From Flavobacteriaceae bacterium (lineage in GTDB: Bacteria > Bacteroidota > Bacteroidia > Flavobacteriales > Flavobacteriaceae): a stretch of 64,000 bases of DNA. Position 1 is the stretch's first letter; the number at the start of each line of letters is the position of its first letter. Positions 1-4,838 of this stretch are shown here, in pieces. The notes beneath the pieces were generated by a model, which was not told where the DNA came from, ran no database searches, and saw nothing but the letters and a program-made list of their open reading frames with translations. The translations under genes and the position numbers were made by a program. Where the stretch lies: assembly GCA_947488595.1 (NCBI GenBank), contig CANKZI010000005.1, forward strand, positions 29,376 through 93,375. The letters are read 5' to 3'.

Positions 1-249
1 TGGTACTTTTGTATTTAACGTTAAAGATTTTTCTGTCAGTACTTTAAAGTCATTTTGTTGAATTAATTTTATAACATCATTACAACCTTCCAACAATTGA
101 TTTTTTAATTCATTGGAAATGAAAAAAGGTGTTTCTGCCATTCGAAATGTAGGCAAGTAATCAAAATCACGGGCTATATTATCCTGAAATTCTTGGTATT
201 TTTGATCGGTAAAACTTTCGTTAAAAAGGGTTCTGTATTTGTCAATCAT
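1..249 (-). CDS. N-terminal part of an unidentified protein, last visible gene of the amidoligase operon (cut by window edge)
   Basis: This gene is not in the ORF track because it runs off the window. On the minus strand an ATG at 249 opens a frame without stops for 83 codons, beginning MIDKYRTLFNESF. It is soluble-looking, with no signal peptide or membrane helix. It lies 80 bp downstream of the glutamine amidotransferase gene and in the same direction, so it is probably the fifth gene of that operon. I do not recognise the family from this N-terminus alone. By context it could be another ligase or a tailoring enzyme, but that is inference. The homogeneous codon use and the co-directional spacing support a real gene. 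Confidence 0.75.
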   Translation of the reverse strand, partial: MIDKYRTLFNESFTDQKYQEFQDNIARDFDYLPTFRMAETPFFISNELKNQLLEGCNDVIKLIQQNDFKVLTEKSLTLNTKVP

Positions 250-329
250 TTTTTTGGAATGGTATTAGGTACAGGCAGGATGTAAATTGTATCCGTACTT
301 TACACAATATTACAAACCACAAGATACAG

Positions 330-1160
330 CTAGTTGGATAGTATTTTTTTAGTTTTCATTAAATCATTAATGGCAATTCTAAGAAAATTGGGAATTAATG
401 TTTCGTTGGTTTTATAGATTTTATCACTGTCCAAAAGGTCTTCGAGCATGTTTCTGAATTTTCTCTTACCTTTCATTTTGCGGATTTTCTCCCTTTTTTC
501 CGCGTTTCGCAGATTGGCAATAAAACTAATAGGATCGGCTTCGGGATGAAATTGAGTACCCACAAGGTAGTCAGAAAATCGAACAGCCATAATTGCTCTT
601 TCATATTGCACATGGTCTCTTATTTTCTCGAGCGAAATAATTTTAGCACCTTTTTGAGCAAAAATTTTAAGATTGGGTTGCACCACTTGATAATCTCTTG
701 AATCGACGGCATAAAATGGATCTGCCAAACCTTCAAAAACGCCATCATTAAGGCCTTCTTTGGTTTTGTGAACAGTCATTACACCGAATGAGGTATCGTT
801 TCTTTTGTTAATTTCAGCAAGTCCAAAATGTTTGCACGCCATTTGAAACGAATGACAAATAAAAAGCATGTGCTTTTTTATTTGATTTTCGTTGTTCCAT
901 GCGGAAACTTCATCAATAAAAGCATAATATTTTTTGTCCCAAATTCCATTACCTTCTAAAGGATTTCCCGGACCACCAGTAGAAATGTAAATATCGTATT
1001 TTTTTACTTCGGGCAATTCAGATTTCCCTCTAACATCAAAAATTTTAAAACTCACAATTTGATTGAAACGATTTATAATGTCAATGAGACATCGCATTCC
1101 TTGATTGGATTCGCCATTGTACATGTCTAGAATCGCAATTTTTATGGTGTGATCTGTCAT
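330..1160 (-). CDS. Class I glutamine amidotransferase (GATase1) domain protein
   Basis: The protein has 276 residues and a class I glutamine amidotransferase fold. Such domains hydrolyse glutamine and pass ammonia to a partner synthase. The nucleophile elbow FICHSFQ places the catalytic Cys at about residue 102, and GTQFHPEAD supplies the His and Glu of the triad at about 205 and 207. A STGGPGNP turn near residue 60 is the usual oxyanion-region glycine motif. A Lys/Arg-rich stretch (about 220-235) and a helical tail follow the core. It is a stand-alone GATase, so the synthase partner is presumably one of the two ligases encoded just upstream (GCS2-type or ATP-grasp). Generic pipelines would probably call it GMP synthase-like, but no ATP-pyrophosphatase domain is present. 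The ammonia acceptor is unknown. Confidence 0.85.
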   Translation of the reverse strand: MTDHTIKIAILDMYNGESNQGMRCLIDIINRFNQIVSFKIFDVRGKSELPEVKKYDIYISTGGPGNPLEGNGIWDKKYYAFIDEVSAWNNENQIKKHMLFICHSFQMACKHFGLAEINKRNDTSFGVMTVHKTKEGLNDGVFEGLADPFYAVDSRDYQVVQPNLKIFAQKGAKIISLEKIRDHVQYERAIMAVRFSDYLVGTQFHPEADPISFIANLRNAEKREKIRKMKGKRKFRNMLEDLLDSDKIYKTNETLIPNFLRIAINDLMKTKKILSN

Positions 1161-1245
1161 ATTTTCTTTGTAATTTTTAAAACAAGATACTAATTTGTAA
1201 ATGTAATCAAATTTAAAATTTAAAAACGATGCAACTAAAATGGTA

Positions 1246-2355
1246 TTAAAGCCCTTTTGTAAATTCGCTTGTAATAAAATCGACTACTTTGGTTAAATCA
1301 TTCGTTTTTTCAAAAACCGCTAATTGTTTATCTGCACCAGTACCTTCTCGCATGATTTGATGCACATAACTGATTTGCTCACGACTGCCTAATTCATCGA
1401 CAACATCTTCGATAAATTCCAGCAATTCACCAATCAGTAATTTGGTTTCTACTTCTCTTTGCAAACCAAAATCAATCATATTTCCTTCGATGCCATAACG
1501 TGCAGCGCGGAATTTATTTTCTTTAATCAAGGCAATCCTATAAATATTAAAGCTGGTATTTTGCATAGTCAACTTGTAAAGTTTTGCCACAACTGCTTGT
1601 ATAATCGCTACGATACACATTGTTTCATCAACGGTCAGACTCATATCGCAAATTCGGAATTCAATAGTATCATAAAAAGGATGTAAACGCAAATCCCACC
1701 ATATTTTTTTGGGATTGTCGATACATTTGGTTTTTACTAACGTATCCAAATAATTGTCGTAGGCCGAAACCGAATCAAAATATTCGGGCAAACCAGTTCG
1801 TGGAAACTTATCAAAAACCTTGGTTCTAAAAGATTTGTAACCAGTTTGTCTGCCTTCCCAAAACGGCGAATTGGTAGAAAGTGCAAAAATATGAGGCAAA
1901 AAATAACACGCTTGGTTCATCAACTGCATCCCGATTTCACGGTTTTCGATTCCCACATGGCAGTGCATTCCGAAAATCAAATTGGAACGCGCGGCATCCT
2001 GCAATTCGTTAACAATCGTGTGGTAGCGCGGATCGTCGGTGATGGGTTGGTCTTGCCATCTCGAAAACGGATGTGTTCCAGCACCACCAACAACAAGTCC
2101 TTGTTGGTCTGCCAATTCAACAATTTTATTGCGTAGGAATTTTATCTCATCCTTGGCTTCGGCTACACTTTTACAAATATTAGTACCAACTTCAACAACC
2201 GATTGGTGCATTTCTGCTTTTACTTGCTCATTTAAAATTATTTTTGCTCCGTCAACAATTTTTGACAAATGCGAACGTAAATCTCGCGTACTCGGATCTA
2301 TAATTTGGTATTCTTCTTCGACACCGAGTGTGAAAACTGGTAATTTTTTTGTCAT
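1246..2355 (-). CDS. Carboxylate-amine ligase, YbdK/GCS2 family (COG2170)
   Basis: The protein has 369 residues, normal for the YbdK branch of the glutamate-cysteine ligase 2 family. These glutamine-synthetase-fold enzymes use ATP to join a carboxylate to an amine; YbdK-type proteins have weak gamma-glutamylcysteine ligase activity. The diagnostic N-terminal GVEEEYQIID is at about residue 11. HMHCHVGIENRE-like metal and substrate residues (seen as GMHCHVGIEN, about 128-138) and RLHPFYDTIEFRICDM (about 222-238) complete the fold signature. It sits between the ATP-grasp gene upstream and the GATase gene downstream, both within 70-85 bp. That context argues against housekeeping glutathione synthesis and for a dedicated amide or peptide product. 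The ligase family call is secure; the substrate is not known. Confidence 0.9.
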   Translation of the reverse strand: MTKKLPVFTLGVEEEYQIIDPSTRDLRSHLSKIVDGAKIILNEQVKAEMHQSVVEVGTNICKSVAEAKDEIKFLRNKIVELADQQGLVVGGAGTHPFSRWQDQPITDDPRYHTIVNELQDAARSNLIFGMHCHVGIENREIGMQLMNQACYFLPHIFALSTNSPFWEGRQTGYKSFRTKVFDKFPRTGLPEYFDSVSAYDNYLDTLVKTKCIDNPKKIWWDLRLHPFYDTIEFRICDMSLTVDETMCIVAIIQAVVAKLYKLTMQNTSFNIYRIALIKENKFRAARYGIEGNMIDFGLQREVETKLLIGELLEFIEDVVDELGSREQISYVHQIMREGTGADKQLAVFEKTNDLTKVVDFITSEFTKGL

Positions 2356-2425
2356 GATTTTAATGTGTCAATTTAAAAATGAGATAATTAGAAAATGAGA
2401 TAATTAGAAAATTTGATAATTTATA

Positions 2426-3367
2426 TTATTTGGCAGCATCTTTAATAAAAGTACCCCATGTCAAATTCATTACACCTGGTTTTTGTTTTTTTGCTGCAGC
2501 AATAGCCATTTTAGCAGATTCTTCGACTACCCATTCAAAATTTTCGGCACCAACTGAAGTTAATTCGGCATCGGGCGCTGGGTTTCCAAAATCAATTGCG
2601 TACGGAATACCATCACGAACTGCAAATTCTACTGTATTAAAATCATAACCTAAACCTTTGCAAAGTTTAATTGTATAATCTTTTACTGTTGCTAGTAATT
2701 TTTTATCAACTGGCGGCCCATTAATCACATAACGCAAATGGTGCGGATTTCGAGGCTCGTACTGCATGATTCTGACTGCTTTTCCGCCAAGGCAATACAC
2801 CCTAAAATATTCGGTAAATACAATCTCTTCTTGCAAAAGCATTACCAATTGTCCAGTTTCTTGGTGTTTTTGCCAAAACTCTTCTTTGTTTTCTATTCGA
2901 TAAACGTTTTTCCATCCGCCACCAGCATAAGGCTTCATATAGGCGGGAAATCCGATATAGTCAAAAATACCTTCCCAATCCATTGGAAAAGTCAAATTTC
3001 GAAATGATTTTGAAGTAGTATCGGTAGGATGTTCAGCCGATGGAAGAATCACGGTGTTAGGCAGCGGAACACCTAAAGTATCGGCCAAAGCGTTGTTGAA
3101 AAACTTGTCGTCGGCACTCCACCAAAACGGATTATTGATGACATTGGTTCCGGTTAAGGCCGCATTTTTTAGATAAGCACGATAAAAAGGAACATCTTGC
3201 GAAATACGGTCGATAATTACGGCATATTCGCCACCTTTATTTTGTACGACTTTATCTATTGATACCGCTTCGGCAATGATTCCTTTTTCATTTTTTGAGT
3301 TCACTCTGTCGATAAAGGCTTTCGGATAAGTATCTTCCATTCCAAATAAGATTCCAATTTTTTTCAT
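2426..3367 (-). CDS. ATP-grasp family ligase
   Basis: The protein has 313 residues and an ATP-grasp layout. There is a pre-ATP-grasp Rossmann-like start (KKIGILFGMEDTYP), then the central lysine segment AYMKPYAGGGWKNVY at about residues 140-155. The strand EYFRVYCLGGKAVRI and the metal-binding end YAIDFGNPAPD (about 265-275) follow. ATP-grasp enzymes make an acyl phosphate and couple it to an amine or thiol. It is the second gene of the operon, 45 bp after the esterase gene and 70 bp before the GCS2-type ligase. Having two different ATP-dependent amide-forming enzymes side by side suggests a two-step ligation, such as a dipeptide or modified amino acid. It is not D-Ala-D-Ala ligase or a recognisable RimK. 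The substrate is unknown. Confidence 0.82.
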   Translation of the reverse strand: MKKIGILFGMEDTYPKAFIDRVNSKNEKGIIAEAVSIDKVVQNKGGEYAVIIDRISQDVPFYRAYLKNAALTGTNVINNPFWWSADDKFFNNALADTLGVPLPNTVILPSAEHPTDTTSKSFRNLTFPMDWEGIFDYIGFPAYMKPYAGGGWKNVYRIENKEEFWQKHQETGQLVMLLQEEIVFTEYFRVYCLGGKAVRIMQYEPRNPHHLRYVINGPPVDKKLLATVKDYTIKLCKGLGYDFNTVEFAVRDGIPYAIDFGNPAPDAELTSVGAENFEWVVEESAKMAIAAAKKQKPGVMNLTWGTFIKDAAK

Positions 3368-3412
3368 AATAATTTGTTGAATAATTTTTAATATTGATAC
3401 GTATTTCTAGTT

Positions 3413-4126
3413 TTAAAAAAATTTAATTCTGGACAAATAATGTGGAAACATTTCTTTCCAAACTGGCCAATCGTGTTCTCTATCTTGTCGAATGTCTAAC
3501 CAATGGTCCACATTTCGGTCATTTAAAACTTTGCTTAATTTAAGATTGGCATCGAAACAAATATCCCAATTAGAAGTTCCAAGAACAATATCCATATTCC
3601 ATAATTCGTGGTCGTTCAATCCAAAAAGATAATCTTCGGGACTGTTGTAAAAAACGTCGTCATTATGAAAACCATCCATAAAACTTTTGATATTGAAAGC
3701 GCCGCCCATCGAAAAAACATGACTAATATAACCAGGATGTCTAAATGCAAAATTGACCGCATGATAACCTCCAAAGCTGCAACCTGCAACAGCAACTTTG
3801 CCAGAACCCGTATTGTTTTTTACGCGCTCGACAATTTCGTGACAAATCATCTTGTCATACCAAACGTGGTTTTTGATGCGATGAACTGGATGGATATTTT
3901 TATTATAAAAACTGTCTTTATCTATACTGTCTGGACAAAAAATCTGAATTAATCCTTGTTCAATGTACCATCGTGCAGATTCGATCAAACCTTGATCACG
4001 ATTTTCATGATAACTGCCCATCGATGTTGGAAAAAGTATTACTGGATAACCAGTATGGCCAAAAACTAGCATTTGAATATCGCGGTTCAAATTGGGGGAG
4101 TACCATTTGAAGTATTCTTCTTTCAT
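3413..4126 (-). CDS. Putative esterase, alpha/beta hydrolase fold (esterase D/PF00756-like)
   Basis: The protein has 237 residues and lacks a signal peptide, so it should be cytoplasmic. The nucleophile elbow AGCSFGGYHA puts the catalytic Ser at about residue 115, matching the GxSxGG of the esterase D family. REHDWPVW near the C-terminus (about 217-224) supplies the expected catalytic His. The opening EEYFKWYSPNLNRDIQML is the beta-sandwich-like start common in these proteins. It is the first gene of the amidoligase operon, with a putative promoter in the 313-bp gap upstream. A hydrolase in such an operon may release or trim the product or remove a protecting ester. Small-molecule esterase, peptidase-like or thioesterase activity are all possible. 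Confidence 0.82.
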   Translation of the reverse strand: MKEEYFKWYSPNLNRDIQMLVFGHTGYPVILFPTSMGSYHENRDQGLIESARWYIEQGLIQIFCPDSIDKDSFYNKNIHPVHRIKNHVWYDKMICHEIVERVKNNTGSGKVAVAGCSFGGYHAVNFAFRHPGYISHVFSMGGAFNIKSFMDGFHNDDVFYNSPEDYLFGLNDHELWNMDIVLGTSNWDICFDANLKLSKVLNDRNVDHWLDIRQDREHDWPVWKEMFPHYLSRIKFF

Positions 4127-4439
4127 GTATTCCTATTTTATTAATAAACAATTATAATAAAAATAAACAAGAATTGGGGGTTTTGGCTGCTTTTTGTTTT
4201 ATAATTATTGTAATGTTTGTATAAATGTATAAACTTTAACAAAATGGTAATAAATCTTGTAAAATTTACATTTGTTTTAAAATTCATCAAAAAAAGACCA
4301 TTTGTATGGAATTCAACTCATAAGAAAAAACAACAGTAAAATTCTTTTTTTTGGAAAGTAGGCGTTTTTATAAAAAATGATGTTGTTAATAAAAAAATAG
4401 GTTGGAGTTTTATAGGTGCCTTTTTATGCTGCAACCAAT
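4127..4439. other. 313-bp intergenic region, AT-rich, no gene
   Basis: No reading frame with coding character is visible. The stretch separates the conserved 132-residue gene from the esterase-led operon, both on the minus strand. It holds one plausible minus-strand promoter (listed separately), several poly-A/T runs and no convincing hairpin terminator. Its length and the promoter suggest the amidoligase operon is transcribed independently of the upstream gene. Confidence 0.6.
4261..4291 (-). promoter_or_regulatory. Putative promoter of the amidoligase operon
   Basis: On the minus strand TTTG (4288-4291) is followed after exactly 19 bp by TAAATTTT (4261-4268). This matches the Bacteroidota -33 TTTG and -7 TAnnTTTG pattern at all but the last base. 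It lies about 135 bp upstream of the esterase start, leaving a long leader. The match is by eye and the base composition is permissive, so confidence is limited. Confidence 0.35.
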
Positions 4440-4838
4440 CTACAATTGCAACTCAAATAACTGAACTTGATTTTTGAGTCGTTCGATAAGCATTGACATC
4501 ATTCTTTTATTGAGGTCAGAAGAGTTTTGAATGTAACGCTCATATTCGTCGATTGTAAACAATCCAAGGATAATTCCTTTTAACGAATTTCTAAATTTGA
4601 TGTCTCTTTGAATACTATTCTCGATAAATTGCAGTTTTTTTTGAAGCGAAAATTTATAAAAATCTGTTTTGCTTTTTGTAATATAATTTTTTAAAACATC
4701 GACAAGCAAATCATTTTGAAGCTTTAAAATAGGTCGCAACGTTTGGTTTTGAAAAAATTCGTCAGCGGTTGATTGCGCGCTAACTGTTCCGAGTATTTCG
4801 CCGCGAAACGATCTTATAAATTGGTCTCTTGTACTCAT
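4440..4838 (-). CDS. Conserved flavobacterial hypothetical protein (132 aa)
   Basis: The protein has 132 residues, is predicted almost entirely helical, and has no signal peptide. It opens MSTRDQFIRSFRGEILG and ends with an amphipathic helix MLIERLKNQVQLFEL. I recall close homologues across flavobacteria, sometimes labelled glyoxalase. I see none of the betaalphabetabetabeta repeats or metal ligands of the glyoxalase fold, so that label looks wrong. The gene stands alone, 79 bp downstream of the convergently unrelated stop of no gene; its upstream neighbour (M1 peptidase) is on the same strand. Its function is unknown. The regular helix pattern suggests a small protein-protein interaction domain, which is only inference. 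Confidence 0.75.
   Translation of the reverse strand: MSTRDQFIRSFRGEILGTVSAQSTADEFFQNQTLRPILKLQNDLLVDVLKNYITKSKTDFYKFSLQKKLQFIENSIQRDIKFRNSLKGIILGLFTIDEYERYIQNSSDLNKRMMSMLIERLKNQVQLFELQL

Follow-up and report, generated by a model that had tools for sequence, protein, structure and literature searches.

What is made by a gene cluster that encodes two unrelated amide-forming ligases, a glutamine amidotransferase (GATase)-like protein and an esterase? Such a cluster occupies positions 1 to 4126, on the minus strand, of a 64,000-nucleotide stretch of the genome of a Flavobacteriaceae bacterium (assembly GCA_947488595.1, contig CANKZI010000005.1, positions 29,376 to 93,375), hereafter called the window. 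It consists of five co-directional open reading frames, which we named, in the order of their transcription, EST, AGA, GCS2, GAT and AGB. The gaps between them measure 45, 70, 85 and 80 base pairs (bp), in agreement with the operon with 45 to 86 bp gaps that had been proposed in an original prediction made from the sequence of the window. We read these genes as a module for the biosynthesis and trimming of a small non-ribosomal peptide or amide of the gamma-glutamyl type, and assign this reading a probability of about 0.5. A small peptide or amide, as originally suggested, is thus still the best reading of the product, which cannot be named more closely from sequence.

The composition of the module depends on AGB, of which the window holds the first 83 amino acids (positions 1 to 249, minus strand); the full reading frame in the assembly has 396 (L007:6059-7249). 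The original prediction counted two ligases and an unidentified fifth gene. Both ligase calls stood, and the fifth gene, truncated by the window edge, is predicted from its fold to be a third ligase. AGB gave no match above cut-off in Pfam or NCBIfam. An AlphaFold2 model was computed from an alignment of 45 AGB proteins for a copy from Flavobacterium soli (L023) with 85% identity, not for the window's own sequence (predicted local distance difference test score, pLDDT, 86.3; predicted template modelling score, pTM, 0.88). In a Foldseek search this model matched yeast glutathione synthetase (1m0w, E = 5.5e-14), the GspS-like protein 3n6x (7e-14) and YgiC of E. coli (3e-12), and a profile built from 36 diverse members of the AGB family matched a single PDB sequence, again YgiC (E = 0.019). 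Matches to alkaline phosphatase in a single-sequence PDB search were weak and were taken as chance, the identity being settled by profile and structure. D95, E111, Q113, K264, K297, G304 and G306 are invariant in the 36 proteins; Asp95, Glu111 and Gln113 come first in the chain and are followed by Lys264, Lys297 and the Gly-rich loop, which is the order of circularly permuted ATP-grasp ligases.

AGB thus appears to share the fold and permuted domain order of eukaryotic-type glutathione and homoglutathione synthetases (1m0w, 2hgs, 3kal), including the Mg-binding Asp/Glu positions and the two ATP lysines, but at about 14% identity. Like them it has a partner of the gamma-glutamyl ligase type, GCS2; unlike them it is also accompanied by AGA as third ligase, by a hydrolase and by an esterase. 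Two positions set it apart. Position 113 is Gln where the Mg-ligand pattern D-x(n)-E-x-N has Asn, and position 93, two residues ahead of the Asp that binds Mg, is A, Q, V, T or I in the 36 proteins and never Arg. The fungal ligase Cp1B of the E-64 pathway, which has the same fold and makes pseudodipeptides without a non-ribosomal peptide synthetase, differs here, as its R139, an important catalytic residue at this distance from the Asp (PMC12568646), is not conserved in AGB; the equivalence of R139 and position 93 was judged from sequence, not by superposition. Gln113 and the missing Arg93 would mark AGB as a separate subfamily, and we claim it by predicted fold, not as a member of a named enzyme family.

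Since YgiC and YjfC ligate peptides to spermidine (cited in PMC12568646), the module might instead serve peptidyl-polyamine synthesis, with GCS2 and AGA making a short acidic peptide and AGB joining its carboxylate to a polyamine in the manner of GspS, YgiC and YjfC. We consider this improbable: YgiC is the only profile match of AGB, and 3n6x and YgiC rank beside glutathione synthetase in the fold search, but the identity of the amine does not follow from the fold, and neither a GspS-type amidase nor a polyamine gene was seen in the cluster. We know of no GCS2 or GAT in the pathways of YgiC, YjfC or Cp1B.

The two other ligases were recognized by sequence families. GCS2 (positions 1246 to 2355, minus strand; 369 amino acids) is a carboxylate-amine ligase of the glutamate-cysteine ligase 2 type, with the glutamine-synthetase fold (PF04107, E = 4e-61). 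It passes the curated cut-offs of generic carboxylate-amine ligase models only (NF010039, 524 bits; cut-off 371), and its solved relatives are YbdK structures (1r8g and 1tt4, E about 1e-48). AGA (positions 2426 to 3367, minus strand; 313 amino acids) resembles ATP-grasp ligases of the RimK and D-Ala ligase kind. It stays below the family cut-off for RimK alpha-L-glutamate ligases (TIGR00768, E = 1e-7, 31.5 bits; cut-off 143.4) and far below the cut-offs of D-Ala ligase models, and its profile matches D-Ala-D-Ala ligase in the PDB weakly. K145, GGG149-151, E180, R189, E247, D259 and N262 are invariant in 23 members, so that the Lys that binds ATP, the Gly-rich loop, the hinge Glu and the acidic residues for Mg binding expected of an ATP-grasp enzyme are all conserved. 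Judged by their sequences, then, neither would be one of the known glutathione or D-Ala enzymes, a possibility on which the original prediction could have failed.

The five genes belong together far outside this strain, as expected of the conserved amidoligase operon that had been postulated. A pattern scan with one genome per species gave at least 572 relatives of AGB, of which we examined the best 80, mostly from Flavobacterium and Cyclobacteriaceae; among named records, Flavobacterium species come closest, which places the host in this genus or near it. GCS2, GAT and AGB follow each other in the same order and on the same strand at all 80 loci, AGA is present at 77 and EST at 74, and the complete series EST-AGA-GCS2-GAT-AGB was found at 74 loci of Flavobacterium and Cyclobacteriaceae, the missing genes being partly explained by contig ends. 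This arrangement is far beyond chance. In a survey of 393 Bacteroidota genomes, AGB was detected in 118 (about 30%), GCS2 above cut-off in 131 and AGA in 138; 109 genomes have all three ligases and 242 none. The remainder hold AGB with AGA (5), AGB with GCS2 (4), GCS2 with AGA (9), AGA alone (15) or GCS2 alone (9), and AGB was found without another ligase in none of the 393. The co-occurrence is significant (Fisher p < 1e-60, a value that ignores shared ancestry). More telling than such p-values is that the ligases co-occur even where their genes are unlinked, in families f37, f39, f42 and f43.

GCS2 and AGB occur together in 113 of the 118 genomes with AGB, and this pairing could be taken for a glutathione-like two-step route to a thiol of low molecular weight (gamma-Glu-Cys-X), in which EST would behave like an S-formylglutathione hydrolase. 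The family of GCS2, the glutathione synthetase fold predicted for AGB and the membership of EST in PF00756 are consistent with such a route, as is the position of bshA directly upstream of GCS2 at two loci (L171 and L173); every instance of that adjacency, however, came from a genome lacking AGB. EST is closer to CE1 esterases. YbdK-type GCS2 proteins have only weak ligase activity, and Pro116 and Leu118 of AGB lie near what we take to be, without superposition, the positions of the glutathione synthetase serines that contact gamma-Glu-Cys; we count both against a thiol. Furthermore, bshC exceeded its cut-off in 375 of the 393 genomes and in the window's genome, so that bacillithiol genes are already present in the host. 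Overall, a thiol seems an unlikely product. Bacillithiol has been described in Bacteroidota (PMC6282198), and the idea that the operon replaces it was rejected, given the near universal presence of bshC in the sample and its presence in the window's genome. The two bshA genes (L171:5638-6786 and L173:5961-7118; 543-545 bits, cut-off 274) belong to two genera that lack AGB and carry both GCS2 and AGA, and in these lineages GCS2 may be connected with thiol metabolism.

GAT (positions 330 to 1160, minus strand; 276 amino acids) is a stand-alone protein of the class I GATase fold (PF00117, E = 8e-9), and its Cys102-His205-Glu207 triad is invariant in 26 of 26 members. The original prediction saw in it a source of ammonia, in which case a ligase-activated carboxylate would be converted to a primary amide. 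The GATase fold, the intact triad and the vicinity of the ligase genes would suit this role. The structural model (pLDDT 88.8), however, places GAT next to two uncharacterised stand-alone proteins and then to the Arabidopsis gamma-glutamyl peptidase GGP1, its nearest characterised fold, ahead of GMP synthase and other ammonia-supplying subunits. GGP1 is likewise a stand-alone enzyme of the class I GATase fold with the same type of Cys-His-Glu triad; it differs in its sequence (about 15% identity) and in that GAT sits in a ligase operon.

The genomic distribution of GAT was determined by whole-genome searches of 72 genomes with AGB. Obligatory co-occurrence, as expected of an ammonia-supplying amidotransferase, was not found: GAT was detected in 25 of these genomes, and nearly all of the other 47 retain GCS2 and AGA. 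In family f31 GAT is unlinked from the cluster. In families f34, f45, f53 and f61 its place between GCS2 and AGB is taken by an M29 aminopeptidase with conserved Glu, His and Asp as metal-ligand candidates. This M29 subfamily was detected in 11 of the 72 genomes, never together with GAT (probability of zero overlap by chance 0.006, or 2e-7 in the 37 genomes of families with linked clusters, a subset picked afterwards; both values are uncorrected for ancestry). The exchange is also seen within a single family, f49, where eight genomes carry GAT and two carry M29, in the latter exactly between GCS2 and AGB. On the AGB tree, the GAT/M29 state requires three changes, of which well-supported branches force only one, and in one genome (G265) M29 lies away from AGB.

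Because of the many AGB genomes without GAT, the M29 enzyme in the same position and the GGP1-like fold, we do not favour GAT as an ammonia source and regard a primary amide formed in this way as rather doubtful. GAT is probably a hydrolase, and both the proximity to GGP1 and the mutual exclusion with M29 are indirect signs that it may hydrolyse gamma-glutamyl bonds. At one locus (L204) a C26-type hydrolase stands beside a distant GCS2, so that a relative of gamma-glutamyl hydrolase is independently paired with such a ligase there.

EST (positions 3413 to 4126, minus strand; 237 amino acids), the first gene, encodes an alpha/beta-hydrolase above the cut-offs for PF00561/PF00756, and its profile matches CE1/feruloyl-type esterases in the PDB. 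Asp188 is kept in 23 of 23 aligned members, Ser117 and His218 in 22. At one locus (L151:12061-12789, minus strand) the catalytic Ser is replaced by Gly and the His by Asn, so that EST there is degenerate or non-catalytic, still within the operon. Release or trimming of the product had been attributed to the esterase; as EST is lost or degenerate at some loci, this task is better assigned to GAT or M29.

On this basis we propose that GCS2 couples an amine or an amino acid to glutamate or a similar carboxylate, probably at the side chain of the latter, that AGA would add another unit, and that AGB would use the free carboxylate of the peptide to attach one more amino acid or amine. As a Cys-His-Glu hydrolase of the gamma-glutamyl peptidase kind, GAT would then take off a terminal residue. 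In the simplest case this would be the gamma-glutamyl group, removed either to deprotect the peptide or in its turnover; where a lineage has the M29 aminopeptidase instead, that enzyme would fill the place of GAT. EST might cleave an ester or thioester bond in the product or in a conjugate. A comparable logic is known from the Puu pathway, in which the glutamine-synthetase-fold enzyme PuuA (gamma-glutamylputrescine synthetase) adds a gamma-glutamyl group and the class I GATase-fold enzyme PuuD (gamma-glutamyl-gamma-aminobutyrate hydrolase) removes it. GCS2 and GAT combine the same two folds; however, PuuA is not a GCS2, the Puu pathway has no ATP-grasp ligases, and the present operon lacks oxidoreductases. 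Amidoligase operons with peptidases are an already known predicted kind: Iyer et al. (2009) reportedly grouped ligases of different folds with peptidases in predicted non-ribosomal amidoligase operons. We found no description of this gene set, and no known product for the module, in the literature searched, which covered few subscription papers.

Several observations weigh against the proposed pathway. GCS2 is missing from family f19 and from genome G269, and AGA was not found in a whole-genome search of genome G211; with such partial ligase sets, not every step is obligatory. Besides the absence of GAT from 47 of the 72 AGB genomes, M29 was not detected in 61, and about half of the 72 have neither, so that another enzyme, or none, must act there. 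Finally, the chemistry of AGB may differ, given its Gln113 and the lack of the Arg93 that Cp1B needs. More tentatively, we envisage a widespread small peptide or amide of Bacteroidota that is assembled by the three ligases through a gamma-glutamyl-capped intermediate and decapped by unrelated hydrolases depending on the lineage (a GATase-fold peptidase, M29 or perhaps an amidohydrolase). A module in about 30% of the sampled Bacteroidota, largely kept as a unit and apparently moved between families, would, if read correctly, point to a common metabolite not yet known. The exchange of GAT for M29 would then be a clue to the chemistry, in that one step removes a terminal residue, and AGB, a large family below every Pfam and NCBIfam cut-off, would gain a function.

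The movement between families is suggested by a concatenated tree of four proteins, in which the Flavobacterium operon groups with that of Cyclobacteriaceae, apart from the remaining genera of the family to which Flavobacterium belongs. Constraining the family of Flavobacterium together costs 380 log-likelihood units (approximately unbiased test, p = 5e-70). It thus appears that the genes were transferred as one piece between Cyclobacteriaceae and Flavobacterium, as expected of a working unit. Within the window's own genus AGB is patchy (about one third of the sampled genomes). Spread by plasmids was rejected, as PLSDB gave no match to AGB.

Further genes adjoin the operon in some lineages. 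An Amidohydro_3 gene lies directly upstream of AGB in families f39 and f42 and near GAT in f18; at the loci L150, L152, L154 and L157, where it is directly upstream of AGB, GCS2 is elsewhere in the genome, and at L150 and L152 it overlaps AGB by 4 bp. A second esterase, an M17 leucyl aminopeptidase and a further ATP-grasp gene adjoin the operon in family f5 (L134, L135), at L133 and in genome G282, on the strand of the operon in f5 and on the opposite strand at L133.

Upstream of EST, an AT-rich gap of 313 bp (positions 4127 to 4439, minus strand) is the likely site of the operon promoter. The promoter candidate of the original prediction was not recovered, as no strict Bacteroidetes-type motif matched upstream of EST, and across the window this motif occurred at chance level. 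Beyond the gap lies a gene for a 132-amino-acid protein (H132, positions 4440 to 4838) that matched no Pfam or NCBIfam family above cut-off. H132 is present at 48 of the 80 relative loci and was not detected at those of Cyclobacteriaceae; its median distance to EST is 259 bp, versus 15 to 59 bp between the five operon genes. On both grounds a sixth operon member is unlikely, and H132 probably lies outside the operon. In F. fluvii (L032) and at a second Flavobacterium locus (L076), EST and AGA are gone between H132 and GCS2, leaving GCS2-GAT-AGB. Within the operon, the gap between AGA and GCS2 (positions 2350 to 2421) contains an AT-rich stretch, ATTATCTCATTTTCTAATTATCTCATTTT..., a small dispersed repeat of which the genome holds five further copies (83-94% identity over 31-52 bp).

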